From positions 1-33,474 of the forward strand of contig JAUNNJ010000018.1 in assembly GCA_030531495.1 (NCBI GenBank): a stretch of DNA of 33,474 nt. The letters run 5' to 3'. Below are positions 15,410 to 28,554 of this stretch, in pieces. This DNA comes from Bacteroidales bacterium. Lineage in GTDB: Bacteria > Bacteroidota > Bacteroidia > Bacteroidales > Muribaculaceae. A program made the position numbers and the translations under genes. The notes below the pieces were generated by a model that worked only from the letters and a program-made list of their open reading frames with translations, was not told the DNA's origin and did not search any database. Position 1 is the stretch's first letter; every line of letters starts with the position of its first letter.

Positions 15410-15588
15410 AATCTACAATCTATAAAAACATATATATCATCAGAAAACTATGTTCTCTATTTGATACCCCAAATATATATCGTAAATTTCACATTTCCAA
15501 ATATTTTTACCACATTTTTTAGAAAACTCTAAAAATAATTGCATTTGTAGGAAAACATTCAACAAATATGCGAAAAACCTTTTTGGCA

Positions 15589-15620
15589 TTGAGTTTTTAT
15601 ACACCTCTATACTATTTTTG
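15589..15620 (+). promoter_or_regulatory. Promoter of the phage-structural-like gene
   Basis: TTG at 15589-15591 and TATTTTTG at 15613-15620 form a Bacteroidetes-type promoter with a 21-bp spacer. The start codon at 15651 follows after about 25 bases of leader. Confidence 0.5.
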
Positions 15621-15650
15621 ACACACTTATAATTTAAACATTTCCAAACT

Positions 15651-18053
15651 ATGAAACACACCAAAATCAGCCCCTGTTCCTCTTCGTTTTTTCATAATGA
15701 GGAGGCCGCCCCTACTGGCGAAGCACAGACCACAGTCAACCTTCGACGCCGATGCCAAAGCCTGGAAGTGGTGGGCACGCCCGAAAACATCGCCCACATC
15801 CCTGCTGGACACCGCATCATCTGCGTTCTGGGTGGCAGTTACATTACCACCTCTTCGGGTGACATTTATTCTGATGGCACTCGCTTTCACCACACCGATG
15901 CCGAAGTGATAGAGGCACACAGCATTGAGCAATTCCTGGTTGTGAACACATCAGATGGCATCTTGTATTTCACCAACCACAACGGCGCGCTCCAGCTACT
16001 CAATTTTGAAGATGCAATCCCTGAGTTGCACCTTTCGGCCATCAGCACTGGCAGTATTTCGGAAGATATTCCCCCTTACAATTTCATCACACCTCTTACC
16101 GACTGGCGCGCTCCTCTTCCCTCCGACGATGTTCGCTCGCTTGCCTCAATCATTCGCAGTGCCTACCAGCATCTGCAAAAATCGGCAGCCGACGATGGCG
16201 AATTCACCCGTCCCATACTCCTACGCTATGCTGTGAAGATGACCAACGACGAATACCTGTGGATGAGCGCACCTGTGATGATTGGATTCGACACCGTGAA
16301 AAACCAATACCGCATTCAGGACGAAGCCGTAGCTTCAAGCGGCCATTACACCGGCATTTCAGCCACCTCGCTATCGCTTCCCACCTACCAGATTGGCATT
16401 AGCGTGGTGAACGGCATCAAGCAAGAATGGCATCACCTCATCAAGTCTGTCGACATCTTGGCCACTGCCGAGGTGGATGTGGCAAACACTTCCTTGCTCG
16501 ACTATCGCATGGCCACCACATCGGTGGGCACACGCCGATATATTGCGGAGTTTGGGCCTGCGCCACGTAGCAATAGTGCCATCGTGGGTGAATTGATCAA
16601 CAACCGATGGCAAGTAATAGCCTCGTGTAGCCAAATCGGCGCGCTGGAAAATCACGAATTTCGCGCATGGGGCATCAGCCGCAATCCCACTTCCATTCTC
16701 CCCTCAATTCCAACCTTCACGCTTGGCCAGCCAAGTGGTTTCGCACAGTTTCTTACCAACGCAGAATGCTCCGCTATCGTAGGCCGGTGCAGCCACGAGC
16801 ACTTGCCGGCATGCACTTTGGCGCACAGTGGCCGCATGTATATGGGCGGTGGTAGCGAACGTATCATCTCGCGATGGCATCCTGTGGGTGCGTTTCTGCC
16901 ACCATTCAGCGCTTCGGCGTGCACAGTGAAAGTGATTGAGCAAGTGGGCGAAGCCACCATTGTCAGCAACCACACCTACCCTTTCACACCCTCTTCTATC
17001 AACCCTCTCATCTGCGCCCCACACCTTTCTGCCACTTCGCTACGCATCGAAATCACATCGGGCGCAGCGACAAAAGCCTCGGAGCACGAACTTTCACCAG
17101 TTTACAACTGTGGAATAGCAGCCTACATCGACACCAACCTGCAACCAATCAACCTACCAAGCGCCTCGCCAAGTACCGAAACCACTCACAACACCATCAC
17201 GCTCGCAGAAGGGCGACTCACCGTGACCGCTATCAGCCAACCACTCGTTCAGGAACACAGCAAAACCATTACCGGAGCACAAATCCTTGCCCTCACAGCC
17301 GCAGAACGCCCCATCTATTCGGGCGGATTCGGACGATATCCTCTCTACATGTTCACCAATCAAGGCATATTTGTGATTCCGCAATCGAGTAAAGGCGAGT
17401 TTGGTGAAGCTAAATTGATGAGTCGTAAAACGATTGACACACAACCGAGCCCCATTGCCGGTGGAGGGAAAATATGGTTTATCAGCAGCCACCAGCAATT
17501 GTGCACCATCGAAGGCTCGAAAGTGAAGGTCATCATTCCCGCCAAAGGAATCATGGCGATGGCATGGAACGATGCAGAACAAGAACTCTGGCTACTGCAC
17601 ACCGACAGCTCTCTTTCCATCACCGATGCCGAGGGCTACTTTAGCCATCTCTCGCTGAAAGCACAGTCGGCATTCTTCGATGGCACCCGGGCGCTGTTGG
17701 TTTTGGCCGATGGATGTGTGCTCAACATTTGCAAACCATCGCCAGCAGAGCAAACCATCAACTATCTTTCCCACCCCATTCTGCTATCCTCGAGCATGCA
17801 AGAGCATATTGACCAAATCATCTGGAATATTTTCGGAGAAAATCTGCACCTCCGTCTTTCGCTCCTTGGTGAGCGTGGGGAGAGTTGCCACGGATTCACA
17901 CTTTGCAGTGCAAAAGTCGACGGTAATGTGAATGCCCCCATCTCGCTCCCTGTGTTTTCGCAACCTGCACGCAGCATAAGAATCCACGTCGAAGGCACTG
18001 CCCCATCTGGTGCGATGATTCGCGCCACAGACCTATACACTTCCAACAACTAA
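15651..18053 (+). CDS. Large protein resembling a Bacteroidales phage structural protein
   Basis: 800 residues, no signal peptide or membrane segment, rich in short beta-strand-like stretches. I do not recognise a named family with certainty. The N-terminal LRRRCQSLEVVGTPENI (about 32-48) and the segment beginning RPIYSGGFGRYPLYMFTNQG (about 552), followed by KIWFISSHQQLCTIEGS, resemble beta-propeller-like virion (tail or neck) proteins of Bacteroidales phages, where a similar YPLYvFt.dGIw phrase recurs. The phage reading is supported by a terminase gene converging on it 400 bases away. The frame is long and uninterrupted, and base composition resembles neighbouring genes, so it is old or maintained. 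An alternative is a cytoplasmic beta-propeller protein unrelated to phage. Confidence 0.6.
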   Translation: MKHTKISPCSSSFFHNEEAAPTGEAQTTVNLRRRCQSLEVVGTPENIAHIPAGHRIICVLGGSYITTSSGDIYSDGTRFHHTDAEVIEAHSIEQFLVVNTSDGILYFTNHNGALQLLNFEDAIPELHLSAISTGSISEDIPPYNFITPLTDWRAPLPSDDVRSLASIIRSAYQHLQKSAADDGEFTRPILLRYAVKMTNDEYLWMSAPVMIGFDTVKNQYRIQDEAVASSGHYTGISATSLSLPTYQIGISVVNGIKQEWHHLIKSVDILATAEVDVANTSLLDYRMATTSVGTRRYIAEFGPAPRSNSAIVGELINNRWQVIASCSQIGALENHEFRAWGISRNPTSILPSIPTFTLGQPSGFAQFLTNAECSAIVGRCSHEHLPACTLAHSGRMYMGGGSERIISRWHPVGAFLPPFSASACTVKVIEQVGEATIVSNHTYPFTPSSINPLICAPHLSATSLRIEITSGAATKASEHELSPVYNCGIAAYIDTNLQPINLPSASPSTETTHNTITLAEGRLTVTAISQPLVQEHSKTITGAQILALTAAERPIYSGGFGRYPLYMFTNQGIFVIPQSSKGEFGEAKLMSRKTIDTQPSPIAGGGKIWFISSHQQLCTIEGSKVKVIIPAKGIMAMAWNDAEQELWLLHTDSSLSITDAEGYFSHLSLKAQSAFFDGTRALLVLADGCVLNICKPSPAEQTINYLSHPILLSSSMQEHIDQIIWNIFGENLHLRLSLLGERGESCHGFTLCSAKVDGNVNAPISLPVFSQPARSIRIHVEGTAPSGAMIRATDLYTSNN

Positions 18054-18082
18054 AACTCAACAATTTTGGTGGTCCAAAAAAC

Positions 18083-18121
18083 AAAAATATCACTTTTTCT
18101 TGCAAAAAAGTGATATTTTTT
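18083..18121 (+). terminator. Strong terminator after the phage-structural-like gene
   Basis: A perfect 16-bp stem (18083-18098 with 18105-18120) encloses a six-base loop, CTTGCA. The 3' arm ends in a T-run and the 5' arm begins with an A-run, so it can work in both directions. It begins 29 bases after the stop codon at 18053. Confidence 0.88.
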
Positions 18122-18131
18122 AATCAAAACA

Positions 18132-18162
18132 TTTGCAAATATAAAATTTTGTTGTATCTTTG
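18132..18162 (+). promoter_or_regulatory. Consensus promoter of an intergenic RNA
   Basis: TTTG (18132-18135), a 19-bp spacer and TATCTTTG (18155-18162) match the Bacteroidetes promoter consensus in both boxes and spacing. No open reading frame follows on this strand, which points to a non-coding transcript starting near 18168. Confidence 0.75.
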
Positions 18163-18167
18163 CAGTG

Positions 18168-18350
18168 TTATTTGTTAGCAGTCTCAATCGAAACACTTCG
18201 ATAATTTGGCGTAGGGGATATCATATTTACATATCACAAACGAATTCGGCATCATTAAGAAACTGCAAATCTAAGTCGACTCGTTTGGAATCCTATTAAC
18301 AAATAATACAGATTTGCTCTCTCGGTTTTGCCCGAGAGCAAATCTTATCA
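18168..18350 (+). ncRNA. Structured non-coding RNA of uncertain family (6S-like candidate)
   Basis: The predicted transcript begins just after a consensus promoter. Its 5' end TTATTTGTTA (18168-18177) pairs perfectly with TAACAAATAA (18297-18306), closing the molecule. Inside are hairpin ATCGAA/TTCGAT and the pairings TAGG/CCTA and CAAACGA/TCGTTTG. A 12-bp hairpin, AGATTTGCTCTC (18310-18321) with GAGAGCAAATCT (18334-18345), marks a possible 3' end; a second terminator lies at 18400-18430, so a longer form near 263 nt is possible. Size, closing stem and standalone promoter are compatible with 6S-type RNA or the Bacteroidales-1 class, but the family is not proven. Confidence 0.6.
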
Positions 18351-18399
18351 TTTTGATTCAAAATAGTTGTTTTATAGATAATTGTGTATTTAAGGAAAT

Positions 18400-18430
18400 G
18401 GGAAAGTCGGGAGACTGTCCCTTTTTTTTT
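18400..18430 (+). terminator. Plus-strand terminator downstream of the RNA
   Basis: GGGA (18400-18403) with TCCC (18418-18421) and an inner GTC/GAC pairing form a hairpin followed by nine T residues. The only plus-strand transcription unit that reaches it is the intergenic RNA, so this is either its true end or a back-up terminator. It also lies 20 bases beyond the terminase stop codon, but its T-run is on the wrong side for that gene. Confidence 0.72.
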
Positions 18431-18450
18431 GCCCCAACCTGCCACCCACA

Positions 18451-20376
18451 TCACTGACCACGCATAGTTCCGTCAAGCGATTCACTCTCTGACGTTTGCG
18501 TTCCGTTTTCCGAAATAACATCGCTATAATCGGAAACCACGGCATGATAAGAACTATTTGCCACAAGGGCGATGCCGCGCGACATCACGATATCGTCGTG
18601 CTTGCCTTTGATACCGCCGAATCCACCGCCCACTTTTTCTTCATACCAGCTCATCTCGTCGATGGCATCGCTGTCGTGCTCCACAAACAGTCCTTCTCTC
18701 ACCATCGTCACAAAGTTATTCACCAGTTGCCTCTTGCTGAGCACATTGGTCTGAAAGCCCAACTTCCCATGCTTTCTGCGATACACATTGCGGTAATTCT
18801 TCTTCAGCTGTTCCAGTAAAAATGCCGACTTGCCGTCGGATGCGTGAGTTTCGAGTGTGTTACTTTCCACAGCCAGCAGGGCATTATTATAGAATGTGGC
18901 GAGCAAGATGGCTTTTTCTATCAGCAAATCGTGGTCGATATGCCCACGCCACTGTGCCACGGTTTCACACACACGCTCACTGCAATCAATTACCGAAATC
19001 ACCGAATAGTCGGCACTGTCGCTTCTGCCACCGATGTCCACCCCTACCACATATCTGCTTTCAGAAAGATTATTTGTGGGCATTTTCCACACCTTCAAGC
19101 GAGGCTCACCTTCTTTCACGATTTTCACTTTACTGCCAACGCGTTTCACTTCGCCCACCTTGAGCGGCGCGCAGCAATGTTTACGCATCTCATCAAGGCG
19201 CGACAGCGAGAACACGCATTTGCCTGTGGTGCGGAATGCTTCGGTGGCGCTGGTGGGAAATTCCGCCATCATCTTTTCGTGCGAGAGATAACTCTTGCGT
19301 TTTTCGTGATACCACTTAATCATCTCCAGCGTGCACCCATTGTTCCAAAGCTCACGTTCGTAGTCGTCCAGACTTGCCCACAATTGCGGAATCTCCGCCT
19401 CATCCACAGGCAAGCGATAGATTTCAATTTCGGTCCAAGGGACAAACACCGCCTGCTTGTCGCTGTCGCCATTCACCGAATGTACCCACTCATTGTGGAA
19501 ATAAGTGCCAATGCCGTTGGCTGTGGATTCGAGCACCTCCACCGTAAGTCCGCCCACGAGCAACGAGCCATCGATGGAACGCATCACATCTTCAGGATTT
19601 CGCATCGTGGATGTGGGCCAGAACGCCACTTCGCTCAAGTGTGCCATGGCTATATCGTAGCCACGCACCACATCGTCGGCCTGTGCCGTGCCAAGCAGCA
19701 CCAGGCAATCACGACCCGTAATGATTTTCGCATTGGCATTGCCTTCGAAAGTTTTGAATTCAAACCGCTGACCGTCTTCCAACAGCTCTTTCGGGTAATG
19801 GTTCAAAAGTTTGGAGTACATGCCTTTAATCACACTTGACGTGCCCCGCTTGTGGCCACAAATGATGCTGTTCCAGTTGCGTCGCAGCACCAGTTGAATC
19901 CACGCCATATACATCAGCACCAGCGTAGAGCCACCCCACTGCCGGGCTTTCAGCAATATCATACGCACGCCTTTTCCCGACAGGCGTTGGCGTTCCATAT
20001 CTTGGAGCACGTGGCGTTGTGGGGCATTCAAGCGAAGTTTTACATTTCGCCCGCTCACCTTGTCGCGCACGGTGGCACAAAGCGCGCACCAATATTCAAA
20101 GTCGTATTTAATGCGGGCTTTCTTGTAAGCCAGTTCATCGGTTAGTGCCTCCATCGGCACGTTTTCAAGCATTTCCACCGGAAGCCACACTTCGCCTATG
20201 GAGGGCAGCGCCACACGCCTTCGCTCGCCACAGCATCCTTCGCCCGTGAGCGGGTCATACGGCGCGAGTCCTTCCTCTTTGCGACTTCGATTCTCGGCAA
20301 TCATTTGCTCGAGAGGCATCGGCAGAGTGCAATCAGTCTCAATATCTGTGTTTTCATGTTTTTCAATGGTATCCAT
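18451..20376 (-). CDS. Phage terminase large subunit-like protein (orphan)
   Basis: 641 residues with both terminase domains. ATPase: a deviant Walker A KARQWGGST (143-151), a Walker B-like MAHLSEVAFW (244-253) with catalytic Glu 249, and ESTANG (283-288) as coupling motif. RNase H-like nuclease: GVDIGG (Asp 447), LAVES (Glu 504) and KHDDIVMSRG (Asp 594/595). All expected acidic residues are present. The P-loop lysine is Gly148, but Lys143/Arg145 at the front of the motif is usual in KARQ-type terminases, so ATPase activity is not excluded. Terminases cut and package phage DNA into procapsids. No small terminase, portal or capsid gene is nearby; the only phage-like companion is convergent. 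No frameshift is seen. Confidence 0.88.
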   Translation of the reverse strand: MDTIEKHENTDIETDCTLPMPLEQMIAENRSRKEEGLAPYDPLTGEGCCGERRRVALPSIGEVWLPVEMLENVPMEALTDELAYKKARIKYDFEYWCALCATVRDKVSGRNVKLRLNAPQRHVLQDMERQRLSGKGVRMILLKARQWGGSTLVLMYMAWIQLVLRRNWNSIICGHKRGTSSVIKGMYSKLLNHYPKELLEDGQRFEFKTFEGNANAKIITGRDCLVLLGTAQADDVVRGYDIAMAHLSEVAFWPTSTMRNPEDVMRSIDGSLLVGGLTVEVLESTANGIGTYFHNEWVHSVNGDSDKQAVFVPWTEIEIYRLPVDEAEIPQLWASLDDYERELWNNGCTLEMIKWYHEKRKSYLSHEKMMAEFPTSATEAFRTTGKCVFSLSRLDEMRKHCCAPLKVGEVKRVGSKVKIVKEGEPRLKVWKMPTNNLSESRYVVGVDIGGRSDSADYSVISVIDCSERVCETVAQWRGHIDHDLLIEKAILLATFYNNALLAVESNTLETHASDGKSAFLLEQLKKNYRNVYRRKHGKLGFQTNVLSKRQLVNNFVTMVREGLFVEHDSDAIDEMSWYEEKVGGGFGGIKGKHDDIVMSRGIALVANSSYHAVVSDYSDVISENGTQTSESESLDGTMRGQ

Positions 20377-20392
20377 AAAGTTTTTTTTTGCG

Positions 20393-20424
20393 TAAATCTA
20401 CATCATCCGCCCCTCGTTTGTCAA
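20393..20424 (-). promoter_or_regulatory. Possible promoter of the terminase-like gene
   Basis: On the minus strand TTGA (20424-20421) and TAGATTTA (20400-20393) are 20 bp apart. This is one base off the TAnnTTTG element. The start codon is at 20376. Confidence 0.4.
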
Positions 20425-20443
20425 CCCCAATAAGGCAATACGA

Positions 20444-21993: not shown

Positions 21994-23250
21994 TTAAATA
22001 TCCAAGCTATCTTCTTTAAGAAGGAAATCGAAAAGCCCCAATGTGAGTATGCCTTCTTCGTTGCGACGTGGCATGATGTGATCCTTCACAATAATAATCT
22101 TCTTGAAATAGTCATTTATGTTCATTAGTGAGCGAGATTCTTGTATCTCTTTCTCCCTGTCAGGGATGGACAAAGCTGACTGGATATAATATTTATTGCT
22201 CCCCAAACTGGCAATAAAATCCACTTCAAGTTGTGTGCGAGACCACTTACCATCTCTATTCGGTTTTCTAATCTCTACCATTCCAACATCCACATGATAG
22301 CCACGCGTGACGAGTTCATTGTAAATAATATTCTCCATGATATGCGTTTCCTCTTGTTGGCGCATATCAAGAATGGCATTTCTCAAACCGATATCAGAGA
22401 AATAGTATTTGGTGAGCGTATTGATGTACTTCTTGCCTTTTATATCGTAGCGTATGGCTTTGTTTAGCAGAAACGATTCCACCAGAAAGTTAAGGTAATT
22501 AGAAATTGTCTTATTTGTGATATTTACGTTTTTTACACTCTTAAAGGTGTTTGAAAGTTTTGTAGGATTACAGGGGGAACCAATGGACGACGCCATGAAA
22601 AGTACGAGTTCACGCATTTCATTCTCGTTTTGCACCTTGTGCCTTTCTATTATATCCGCAAGATAAACAGTTTCAAACAAGTTTTTAAGATAGTTAATCT
22701 TTTTCTGCTCCGTTTCAAATGACTGAACAAGAGGCAAACCTCCATAAGTGTAATATTCGCGCCATGCATCCTGCTTGTCGCCACCCACAGCAGAATAAAA
22801 CTCCGCAAAAGATAAAGGATTCACATGTATTGTTTCACCTCGACCTCGGAACTCTGTGGGAATATCAGAAGACAGGAAGTGGGAGTTACTGCCTGTCACG
22901 TACGTGTCAGCATTTTCAATATGGCGGAAACTATTCAACACATCCACAAACTCATCCATTAACTGCACCTCGTCAATGATGATGTAATAAAGGTCATTGT
23001 CCTTAATCTTGCCGTGGACATGATGGAGCATGGCATCAGGATCTCTCAAATCCTTGTTTAGGCGGTCTTCAAGATCAATTCGAATTATATGGTCTTTTGC
23101 CACTCCATTATCTAGCAAATAGTGATAGAACAAAACATTCAGCAGATATGATTTGCCACATCTGCGGATGCCAGTAATTACCTTAATAAAGCCATTCTGC
23201 CGACTGTCTATCAACTGTTTTAGATATCTGTCTCTTTTTATTTCAACCAT
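21994..23250 (-). CDS. AAA ATPase with DUF4143/PD-(D/E)XK-like C-terminus
   Basis: 418 residues from MVEIKRDRY. Walker A is GIRRCGKS (about 27-34) and Walker B is YIIIDEVQLMD (about 92-102). A sensor-like YVTGSNS is at about 119-125. A winged-helix/DUF4143 region (about 180-300) and an end with LEVDFIASLGSNKYYIQ, a degenerate nuclease-like strand pair, follow. This is the very common bacterial/archaeal ATP-binding family whose role is unknown; suggestions include regulation or defence. The start at 23250 is fixed by a strong Shine-Dalgarno sequence. The coding sequence looks more A+T-rich than its neighbours, and flanking direct repeats suggest it was acquired. Confidence 0.88.
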   Translation of the reverse strand: MVEIKRDRYLKQLIDSRQNGFIKVITGIRRCGKSYLLNVLFYHYLLDNGVAKDHIIRIDLEDRLNKDLRDPDAMLHHVHGKIKDNDLYYIIIDEVQLMDEFVDVLNSFRHIENADTYVTGSNSHFLSSDIPTEFRGRGETIHVNPLSFAEFYSAVGGDKQDAWREYYTYGGLPLVQSFETEQKKINYLKNLFETVYLADIIERHKVQNENEMRELVLFMASSIGSPCNPTKLSNTFKSVKNVNITNKTISNYLNFLVESFLLNKAIRYDIKGKKYINTLTKYYFSDIGLRNAILDMRQQEETHIMENIIYNELVTRGYHVDVGMVEIRKPNRDGKWSRTQLEVDFIASLGSNKYYIQSALSIPDREKEIQESRSLMNINDYFKKIIIVKDHIMPRRNEEGILTLGLFDFLLKEDSLDI

Positions 23251-23254
23251 ATCA

Positions 23255-23260
23255 CTCCTT
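23255..23260 (-). promoter_or_regulatory. Strong Shine-Dalgarno sequence of the ATPase gene
   Basis: AAGGAG lies four bases before ATG 23250 on the minus strand. Bacteroidetes genes rarely have such a site, and the other genes in this window do not show one at this strength. It decides between the starts at 23250 and 23280 and hints at a foreign origin. Confidence 0.7.
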
Positions 23261-23265
23261 TTTCT

Positions 23266-23279
23266 TGTCAATATTGACA
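23266..23279. promoter_or_regulatory. Palindromic operator-like site 1
   Basis: TGTCAATATTGACA is a perfect 14-bp palindrome. It would lie about 7-20 bases downstream of the predicted ATPase transcription start, a place where a bound repressor would block transcription. A near-identical copy lies at 23341-23354. Confidence 0.55.
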
Positions 23280-23292
23280 CTTTTTAGTAATA

Positions 23293-26441: not shown

Positions 26442-26493
26442 CAAAATTATTAAGCTATTGACGGATAAATATCAATTTTTAAACCCCAACTAT

Positions 26494-28554
26494 ATGAAGA
26501 AAACATTACTATTCTTTGCTATTGCCCTGATGGCTTTTGCCAACTCATGGGCAGGCACAGCAACGTTCGACTTCAACGCCAACGGTGCTGCTCTGTTTGG
26601 CTTCTCTGAGCCATCATCTTCGTCGTCGACAGCCGGCGACATCACTGCCGAAAGCACTGCCACAGTGGATGGCGTGACGCTGAAAGTGGGCATCAGCACC
26701 ACCAACACAGTGAATCGCCTATATCTTGACTACAACGGTGGCGTGCAACTCCGCGTCTACAGTGGTCCTGTCACCATTTCTGCTCCTGCAGGAAAGAAAG
26801 TTCAGTCGGTTGTGTTCACTAACACTCGCTGGAGCGCACCAACCTGCTCCACCGGCAGTTTCGTGCAAGAAGCCTCTTGGGCTGGCGACGCAGCCTCTGT
26901 GAAATTTGATTTCGGAGGCCAAAGCCGTATCGACAAAATCGTGGTTACATACACCGATGGCTCAAGCGATCCAGGCTCTGATGTGACCGAAATCAACACT
27001 TTCTACAACCTTGGCACCACCCTTGCCGACAACACCGAATTCAAATTCACTGGCAATGCCTTTGTGGTTTACAAGAACGGCAAGTACAACTATGTGCGCA
27101 ACATCGACTCTGAAGGCTATGGCTATTCAGCCCTCATCTTCGGCGACCTTAACCCTTCATACGAAGTGGGCGACTACATTCCTGCTGGATGGAAAGGCAA
27201 AAAGACTACCTACAGGAGCCAAACAGAAATCACTGATGTGACTGGCAACACCGCTTCCACTATGCAAGCCGAGGAAGACGACGCAGAGCCATTCGACTAT
27301 AGCGGATATGTAGGCTATTTCAGCGAATATCCTCTCGAAGACTACGAGAACGACTACTGCACATTCACAGCTGTCAACCTCTCTGCTGTCGACGACAAGG
27401 GTTACTTCACCATCAGCGAAGAAGAATACGATGAAGAGGACGAAGCGTTCACCGCTTCGCTCCAAGGTTTCAACAAATTCAAAGTTGATTTCCCAACAAA
27501 TGTCAAAGACCAATTGTTTGATGTGACAGGCCTGCTCGTTCACTACAACCAGGCTGTACAATTCGTGCCTACCGAAATCGCGCCTACCGACACTTCTATG
27601 CCATTGTGGAAAATTTGGTACACTGGTGAAGATGGCGACGAAGTCATTGTTAGCGACACTCTCTTCGTGGTGGCTGCTACCAAGGCCAACGAAATTGAAG
27701 CCAACAGCAAGAACTTCATCTATGTGACCGACAACGCTACCCAAATTCTCGACGACACATATGCCGAATGGGGATGGGTTGAATGGATTGATTGGAGTCC
27801 CGACTTCATTGCACTCGACTGTGGCAACAACACCGAACTCTACAACAAGGTGGCTGCCATGAAGTGCATCGCTCCAAAAACTGTGAGCGGCACACTCATG
27901 GACAACTGGACCAACCCTCGCCTCTTGCTTGATGCGGCTCCAGAAGAACTCACCGACTGCAAGTTCCCAACTTTAGCTCTCAGAAACTTGGCATTAAGCG
28001 ACACCATCTACAGCAATGGTCACGAAGTGGCATACATCAGTGGCTATTACCTCCAAAAGGACGGCAAGGAATTCCTCGCTGGCAACAATGGCGTGGATGC
28101 AGAACTCTTCCAACCTATCGAACTTGACCGCCGCTACATCGGCGACTTGGCATTGACCAATGGCAACTTCTACGAAGTGAAGGCTGTGGTGAAGCAAAAA
28201 GAGCCATGGGAAAGCGATGACGAATTTGCACCAGCACACGCTCCTGCAAAGAAGGGTGCTCCAGCCAAGATGACCAAGACTGCAAAGAAGGCAGCAAAGA
28301 AGGCACGCCGCAAAATGTCGATGTACGCCGACAATTATTATGAAAACTACCTCATCTGCCCTCTCGAAGTGAAGTCGGCAGCTATTCTTGGCTATATCGA
28401 TGGCAACGGTGAAGTGAACGTGAGCGATGTCACTGCACTCATCAACAAGATTCTCGGCAGCGCATCATTCAGCGACGCAGTGTGCGACATCAACGGCGAC
28501 GGCGTGGTGAACGTATCCGACGTTACCGCCCTCATCAACCTCATCCTCGGCTAA
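26494..28554 (+). CDS. Large secreted protein with C-terminal dockerin-like repeats
   Basis: 686 residues from MKKTLLFF, with a signal peptide (about 1-20, ending NSWAG). The N-terminal part (about 20-160) looks like a beta-sandwich (ATFDFNANGAALFGF; YLDYNGGVQLRVYSGPVTI). The middle is acidic with no recognised domain. A lysine/alanine-rich stretch (about 580-610) precedes two calcium-loop repeats: YIDGNGEVNVSDVTALINKI and DINGDGVVNVSDVTALINLI at the very C-terminus. In Bacteroidales such dockerin-like tails replace the more usual sorting domains; cohesin partners are not known. The shorter ATG is chosen because the upstream codons precede the signal peptide. Confidence 0.85.
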   Translation: MKKTLLFFAIALMAFANSWAGTATFDFNANGAALFGFSEPSSSSSTAGDITAESTATVDGVTLKVGISTTNTVNRLYLDYNGGVQLRVYSGPVTISAPAGKKVQSVVFTNTRWSAPTCSTGSFVQEASWAGDAASVKFDFGGQSRIDKIVVTYTDGSSDPGSDVTEINTFYNLGTTLADNTEFKFTGNAFVVYKNGKYNYVRNIDSEGYGYSALIFGDLNPSYEVGDYIPAGWKGKKTTYRSQTEITDVTGNTASTMQAEEDDAEPFDYSGYVGYFSEYPLEDYENDYCTFTAVNLSAVDDKGYFTISEEEYDEEDEAFTASLQGFNKFKVDFPTNVKDQLFDVTGLLVHYNQAVQFVPTEIAPTDTSMPLWKIWYTGEDGDEVIVSDTLFVVAATKANEIEANSKNFIYVTDNATQILDDTYAEWGWVEWIDWSPDFIALDCGNNTELYNKVAAMKCIAPKTVSGTLMDNWTNPRLLLDAAPEELTDCKFPTLALRNLALSDTIYSNGHEVAYISGYYLQKDGKEFLAGNNGVDAELFQPIELDRRYIGDLALTNGNFYEVKAVVKQKEPWESDDEFAPAHAPAKKGAPAKMTKTAKKAAKKARRKMSMYADNYYENYLICPLEVKSAAILGYIDGNGEVNVSDVTALINKILGSASFSDAVCDINGDGVVNVSDVTALINLILG

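Follow-up and report, generated by a model that had tools for sequence, protein, structure and literature searches.

Why does a gut bacterium keep an intact phage terminase gene beside a gene for a second phage-type protein, with the rest of the phage nowhere around them? The question is raised by a stretch of 33,474 nucleotides (the window) from the Muribaculaceae, a family of the Bacteroidales (assembly GCA_030531495.1, contig JAUNNJ010000018.1). An initial annotation, made from the sequence alone, left a choice between a domesticated packaging-derived system and the stable residue of an old prophage. The former, in its version as a transfer system, is well supported by what follows and the latter is disfavoured: the pair probably belongs to an ancient, vertically inherited and dispersed gene transfer agent (GTA) of podovirus type, and the window would carry two of its at least five transcription units, which are spread over three contigs. 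The two genes are the following.

15651 to 18053, plus strand: tail nozzle protein of podovirus type, 800 aa (fold match to phage nozzles; phrog_32516)
18451 to 20376, minus strand: terminase large subunit (TerL), 641 aa (PHROG terminases; T4 gp17 profile match; 180 of 198 family genomes)

Both open reading frames (ORFs) are long and intact, as first described. Against the PHROG terminase families TerL reaches a best E of 6e-18, and the profile of its family aligns with both domains of T4 gp17 (3ezk, E 8e-18). Across 31 aligned relatives, K143, R145, Q146, G148 and S150 of a P-loop-like motif are invariant, as are H246, E249, D447 and E504, while D594/D595 are almost so. We take these to be the ATPase and nuclease residues, in part from the gp17 alignment; to that extent the conservation bears out the earlier claim that the enzyme retains them. 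The protein combines an ATPase domain with an RNase H-like nuclease domain and its catalytic acidic residues, as a terminase large subunit should.

For the 800-residue protein, a Pfam scan gave no family, a sequence search of the PDB gave no relative, and a single PHROG of unknown function was matched (phrog_32516, E 3e-14). Its AlphaFold2 model, built on 52 aligned sequences, has a mean pLDDT of 93.6 and a pTM of 0.87. When this model was compared with the PDB by Foldseek, ranks 1 to 18 were all phage tail or tail-complex entries (SU10 chain 7z47_G, E 1e-13), drawn from SU10, E1004, Kp9, T7, crAss001, P22, Sf6, VP1 and other phages, which we take to be podovirus-type. It shares its fold with the tail nozzles of SU10, T7 and P22, although identity is 6-10% and the TM score over whole chains is 0.2-0.45, perhaps owing to a different placement of the domains; the record for P22 gp10 names the matched chain as the nozzle, and we take those of SU10 and T7 to be nozzles as well. 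By fold only, then, the protein is a podovirus tail nozzle, and its description as virion-like stands.

The two genes converge in the window, with 397 bp between them, as was reported initially. This arrangement is found in the window only among the 55 loci that hold both genes (the window and 54 named loci; L194 and L202, of 80 named, were excluded as no TerL was called there), and we regard it as a local rearrangement. The nozzle gene is followed by terL on the same strand within 1 kb in 41 of the 55; in 38 of these the distance is within 150 bp, and in 10 there is a 4-bp overlap. The pair therefore adjoins in most relatives that keep both genes in one locus. We compared 40 stretches of 36 relatives, chosen around TerL, around the nozzle gene or beside them. 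TerL is present in 35 of the stretches and the nozzle in 30, each other gene family occurs in at most seven loci, and a search for a full prophage recognised no contiguous phage genome around the pair. A capsid gene was present in three of these stretches (L079, L086 and L087); in L079 and L086 an SU10-family capsid and a portal of P22 type adjoin efflux genes, whereas L087 has a capsid. Since the ORF caller was a greedy longest-ORF method, small genes may have been missed or starts set too early.

Homologues occur in the Bacteroides phages BF1-TP2 (PQ571263), BS-TP4 (PQ571277) and BKO1-TP3 (PQ571269), whose TerL is 36-39% identical and which also have capsid, portal, connector and scaffold homologues, a distant nozzle homologue and TerS-like proteins (TerS, small terminase subunit). 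They differ in having contiguous genomes of 64-68 kb with early genes and giant proteins, and BF1-TP2 has a tyrosine recombinase. In all three records TerL is labelled 'tail spike protein'. At one relative's locus (L219:1057-2921), about 5-7 kb upstream of TerL, there are a reverse transcriptase with 51% identity to that of BS-TP4, a DUF4376-like gene and a fragment like a 2645-aa protein of BS-TP4. This region is perhaps a diversity-generating element near a dispersed locus.

The pair had been called an orphan, and this proved wrong, as other structural genes persist as separate loci in the same genome. Among the scanned proteins of the window (20 against Pfam, 7 against PHROGs, the smaller ORFs lying outside the scan) none is an integrase or a lysis protein, a portal or a capsid. 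Other contigs do carry portal and capsid genes, a TerS-like gene and a lysis gene, so that the reported absence of portal, capsid, small terminase and lysis genes is true of the window only and fails for the genome. TerL and the nozzle lie on C140, the capsid gene on C125 (28191-29516) and the portal gene on C13 (483-1865); the capsid and portal profiles, each made from two relatives' loci plus phage, matched most of the family genomes, that of the window included. The capsid matches phrog_26635 (E 7e-89) and phrog_1328, a major head protein (E 7e-11). C125 also encodes a scaffold-like frame upstream of the capsid gene, recognised by its C-terminal motif, a TerS-like protein, and a 150-aa protein similar, on visual comparison, to one found after TerS in other genera. 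On C13 an endolysin gene (phrog_894, E 9e-40) immediately precedes the portal gene (phrog_156, E 5e-40). The capsid and portal loci lie among housekeeping genes, and their flanks include genes for pseudouridine synthase, NamZ, a sodium symporter, an H+-pyrophosphatase (H+-PPase) and LD-carboxypeptidase. Some other genera have kept capsid, connector, portal and TerS-like genes in one place (L171, L174 and L086; in L172 no TerS-like gene was called). The portal has about 456-495 aa in most fetched Muribaculaceae loci (for example L164:489-1886), against 622-657 aa in the related phages and 633-662 aa in the sister-family loci L373 and L378; the short form could be a truncation that marks later domestication. 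An AAA_14/DUF4143 ATPase is encoded at 21994-23280 of the window, about 1.6 kb past the terL start, and another near a portal at L164:6150-7514.

How widely is this set of genes kept? In a sample of 198 genomes of the family TerL was found in 180, the nozzle in 148, the capsid in 182 and the portal in 186 (132, 108, 134 and 134 of the 140 good genomes), and TerL, capsid and portal occurred jointly in 170. Absences coincide as well, for TerL and capsid (8 observed, 1.5 expected, p 7.5e-6), for capsid and portal (10 against 1.0, p 2.5e-11) and for TerL and portal (5 against 1.1, p 0.002), in part because some of those genomes are incomplete. The complete genome of a congener, G173 (3.34 Mb), has the nozzle at 925687, TerL at 936857, the portal at 1358419 and the capsid at 1893621, which places three loci 0.4-0.5 Mb apart over a span of 0.97 Mb.

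Beyond the family, the capsid was detected in 22 of 295 genomes of the order, from eight families (the copy in family f20 being prophage-like), and in 3 of 295 of the class, namely the genome studied here, one already counted and one weak match. TerL was present in 18 of 18 capsid-positive genomes of the order outside the Muribaculaceae, and in none of the seven capsid-negative ones given. These distributions favour a gene set older than the family. In several sister families the distance between capsid and TerL is 14-46 kb, and only a few of the intervening ORFs match the three phages. In five, the capsid genes adjoin a gene belonging to a single cluster, of which the one tested member (L371:7605-9251) is a fumarase by Pfam; this fumarase-type neighbour is a conserved chromosomal address of the capsid genes. 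Near the capsid gene the sister families also carry a fibre gene whose N-terminal domain is conserved.

The initial annotation had read the intact frames as a sign of maintenance and proposed measuring dN/dS. By the Nei-Gojobori method, over the 14 lowest-dS pairs per gene (some pairs reuse one locus; pools of 350 TerL, 23 nozzle, 190 capsid and 38 portal pairs), the ratio is 0.07-0.26 for TerL, 0.11-0.24 for the nozzle, 0.04-0.14 for the capsid and 0.09-0.25 for the portal, far below one in every case and in agreement with maintenance. In Mantel tests with 22-25 genomes (p 0.0001-0.016 overall), distances correlate with those of rpoB for TerL (r 0.47), portal (0.40), nozzle (0.52) and capsid (0.25), and the genes' distances correlate among themselves with r from 0.34 to 0.80 (up to 26 genomes). 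In quick maximum-likelihood trees of TerL and capsid all five multi-member genera form single clades with the phage outside, and G000 is joined with G173, although many inner branches are weak, as is the support (63-79) for three of the five genera in the TerL tree. Given the rpoB correlation and the genus clades, the separate loci have been passed on together with the cell line.

The dispersed units may also be regulated in common. Two sites of one promoter-like class lie in the window.

15580 to 15625, plus strand: promoter-like site preceding the nozzle gene (sixth among 57 local genes)
20388 to 20433, minus strand: second promoter-like site of this class, preceding terL (fourth among 57 local genes)

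The model, learned from the upstream regions of 80 TerL/nozzle units of other genomes, covers 46 positions, among them an extended -33 region, a spacer rich in G and the motif TAnCTTTGC. When it was applied to the 57 genes of three local stretches, the endolysin-portal unit ranked first, the capsid third, TerL fourth, the nozzle sixth and the TerS-like unit seventh (p 7e-6, unchanged with three seeds), whereas three control models from other genes gave p 0.49-0.79. The ranking supports a promoter class shared by the five units, which does not in itself prove a regulator. The claim rests on the model with training-loci seeds, because the first matrix had been seeded by the genome's own endolysin promoter. 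No 10-mer shared by three of the five local units was found upstream of them (just 69 bp precede the endolysin gene). A rigid ATTGA-20-TAnnTTTG pattern was also tried and set aside, being rare everywhere.

Six features define a GTA (PMC9662315), and four can be compared with these data. The particle proteins are caudovirus-derived, TerL, capsid, portal and endolysin by profiles and the nozzle by fold. The endogenised genome of a GTA often occupies several loci; here it lies on three contigs, and in G173 it spans 0.97 Mb. Inheritance is mostly vertical, with co-diversification with the host, according to the Mantel tests and trees. As for self-packaging, the spacing of 0.4-0.5 Mb between loci far exceeds the 64-68 kb of the related phage genomes, which suggests, subject to the head capacity, that the set could not package itself whole. 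An active prophage does not fit, as the structural genes are on separate contigs among other genes.

We propose the following model. In some cells, a common signal would activate the shared-class promoters. A prohead would then be built on the portal from scaffold and capsid protein, and TerS and TerL would load it with chromosomal DNA, the cargo to be expected because loci as far apart as those of the complete relative cannot be packaged together in the way of a phage genome. By closing the portal the nozzle would form a short tail, the endolysin would lyse the producer cell, and the particles would bring DNA to relatives.

Several observations weigh against a GTA. It is a prediction from genes, and its membership in the class is provisional. 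The nozzle was undetected in 50 of the 198 family genomes, perhaps through divergence (identity 12-40%); 10 of the 182 capsid matches are distant ones (E 1e-22 to 1e-31), perhaps from other phages; and about one-eighth of the listed portal matches have a stop codon. The name TerS-like is used as the identity would rest on a PHROG of unknown function, phrog_27246, and on the place of its phage member two genes upstream of terL in BF1-TP2. An endolysin lies near portal or capsid in the stretches of 4 of 15 genomes, all of the window's own genus, and no holin or regulator gene was identified for the set. A search with an alignment of seven sister-family fibres (rows L374 and L382 longer than the rest) gave three weak matches in the 198 Muribaculaceae genomes and none convincing; two of the three contigs also carry a second, prophage-like portal. 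A tyrosine recombinase resembling the phage integrase is present in 3 of the 40 TerL/nozzle stretches; these genes (L080:14480-15454, L089:2058-3050 and L096:15676-16794) cluster with the BF1-TP2 integrase and may be Xer-type genes of the chromosome or belong to mobile elements. In other Bacteroidales families the gene set also exists in contiguous, prophage-like form (L387:2070-11446 and L388:1257-19044, the latter with a tyrosine-recombinase-like gene), possibly as kin of the source. The correlation of capsid with rpoB is modest (r 0.25). Two of the three control promoter models picked up start-codon signals, and in a wider genome set the promoter signal was mixed: p was 0.001 for the TerS-like, 0.006 for the endolysin and 5e-6 for the nozzle units, 0.02 for the capsid, 0.32 for the portal and 0.19 for TerL, in a test where many portals lie inside operons, the model was seeded with the genome's own endolysin promoter and the sets include its own genes. 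Low carbon per residue, reportedly a GTA trait, is by contrast a point in favour, of limited weight: TerL, portal and nozzle fall below their phage homologues (p 1e-5 to 7e-5) and the capsid does not, in a comparison with 4-5 phage sequences per gene. Finally, the genome itself is fragmented, with 144 contigs and 78% completeness.

What else could the genes be for? A domesticated podovirus particle might serve another use, such as phage interference, rival killing, or programmed lysis with packaging as a by-product, which we think unlikely though worth keeping in mind. The fibre domain of the sister families is unmatched in 195 of 198 Muribaculaceae genomes, the endolysin gene adjoins the portal gene, and related phages and prophage-like copies are present in the Bacteroidales, all of which would suit such a particle. 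However, a particle that packages nothing would need neither the key residues of TerL nor the portal, which are under purifying selection, and capsid, portal and TerL are lost together beyond expectation. That the machinery is kept although dispersed genes cannot package themselves would also be explained if it were a packaging kit for a specific mobile element, a satellite-like use of chromosomal capsid genes. This we hold improbable, as vertical co-inheritance and the shared promoter class suggest a host function, and no linked mobile element was recognised, though no search was aimed at one.

Slow, functionless decay of a scattered old prophage, already disfavoured above, seems very improbable. 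It could draw on the homologous phages and prophage-like copies, on the fibre not found in most genomes of the family, and on relatives that are without one or more genes or have stops; yet dN/dS is 0.04-0.26, most listed matches have no internal stop, about nine in ten genomes are positive, losses are correlated and a promoter class is held in common. The fragmentation of the assembly might even suggest that phage contigs were wrongly binned with the bacterium, an explanation that is hardly tenable: it is refuted by the same genes in the single-contig genomes G173, G453 and G486, and TerL is also present, with the nozzle, in the records of Heminiphilus faecis AM35 and Barnesiella sp. WM24. 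A dispersed GTA thus remains the reading we prefer.

Between the two genes of the window lies a further element, an RNA with the following parts.

18132 to 18162, plus strand: promoter of the RNA, of Bacteroidetes consensus type, TTTG-19-TATCTTTG (read from sequence)
18166 to 18375, plus strand: folded 5' part of the RNA with the first terminator-like hairpin (z -3.31)
18360 to 18432, plus strand: ultraconserved RNA element, comprising an AT-rich 27-mer (18362-18388), a GTCG-N-GAGAC hairpin and a T-run (pattern and covariation)

The consensus-promoter RNA that had been noticed here is upheld by its promoter, with TTTG at 18132, a 19-nt spacer and TATCTTTG at 18155, a form we take to be the Bacteroidetes consensus, and by a fold that only 2 of 200 shuffles equal. 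No Rfam family reaches its gathering score on 18166 to 18375. The pattern of the 27-mer is exact at 52 of 58 sites, and occurs in 53 of 198 genomes and 16 of 30 genera, with a single exact site in each of 52 genomes; the hairpin covaries, with two-sided changes in 6 of 17 predicted pairs (40 sequences). By hand comparison, 11 of the 53 genomes have the element no more than 1 kb from TerL or the nozzle gene, which we estimate to be above chance and yet not the rule. The synteny of the pair with the RNA that was to be checked is not general, and the RNA does not define the locus; we rejected it as a fixed partner, since the pattern was not found in 145 of 198 genomes and lies more than 1 kb from TerL or the nozzle in 42 of 53. 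6S RNA, suspected from the closing stem, gave no match, either at the gathering score or when E values up to 1 were allowed, and other low-threshold Rfam matches (microRNA and unrelated small RNA (sRNA) models) were taken as chance. The element resembles the sRNA BTnc231 (RF04180) in its A/T-rich 5' part, its hairpin with GTCGTGAGAC and its T-run. The BTnc231 model gives weak matches from the first bases of the element (E 0.12 and 0.024), but they score 19.1 and 20.5 bits where the gathering score is 80.4, too little to place the element in that family. BTnc231 itself was detected by Northern blot in B. thetaiotaomicron (PMC7366714).

Elsewhere in the window, 26458-28554 encodes a protein of 698 aa with a dockerin type I domain at its C-terminus, and the minus strand at 32042-32148 matches the Bacteroidales small SRP RNA (117.6 bits).

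A bolder version of our proposal, which we consider doubtful, is that the GTA predates several Bacteroidales families and is still made by most Muribaculaceae by way of its own promoter class, and that in part of the family the ultraconserved, BTnc231-like RNA is coupled to the nozzle-terminase locus and regulates it. Horizontal transfer in the Bacteroidales is usually credited to conjugative elements and phages; if the dispersed GTA is real, it would be a third, host-owned route in about nine-tenths of Muribaculaceae genomes. PMC12946183 places the Bacteroidales with those gut orders whose rates of horizontal transfer are highest, and for Bacteroides it reports lateral transduction, not a GTA. 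No GTA of Bacteroidales or Bacteroidota was recognised among the titles and abstract openings listed from the literature searched, outside which lay subscription journals and most preprints; within it, this would be the first in Bacteroidota. Prophage searches would be likely to overlook such a system, since its head genes need not be neighbours. The data also seem to set stages of domestication side by side, with phages whose genomes are contiguous, some sister families in which genes are linked, and wide dispersal in the Muribaculaceae.

How does the set compare with known systems? RcGTA is siphovirus-like and has one main structural cluster. Like the present set, RcGTA and other viriform GTAs are caudovirus-derived and occupy several loci (five for RcGTA), with vertical inheritance and regulation integrated with the host (PMC9662315); for RcGTA transfer is proven, and we liken it to the present set by description. 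FpGTA of Faecalibacterium prausnitzii is in our view the closest described case, by analogy: according to PMC12946183, it too comes from a gut bacterium, has separated loci and is most likely podovirus-like. Its operon I encodes a possible TerS, TerL, portal, scaffold and capsid, and its operon II structural and lysis genes. FpGTA differs in belonging to the Bacillota, in having two operons of 10.5 and 5.5 kb, and in that particles with DNA of about 9 kb have been shown (PMC12946183). The Muribaculaceae set, in contrast, is in the Bacteroidota, is predicted from genes and is likened to FpGTA by description; split into single genes and small units that occupy at least three places, it is family-wide and extends to sister families.

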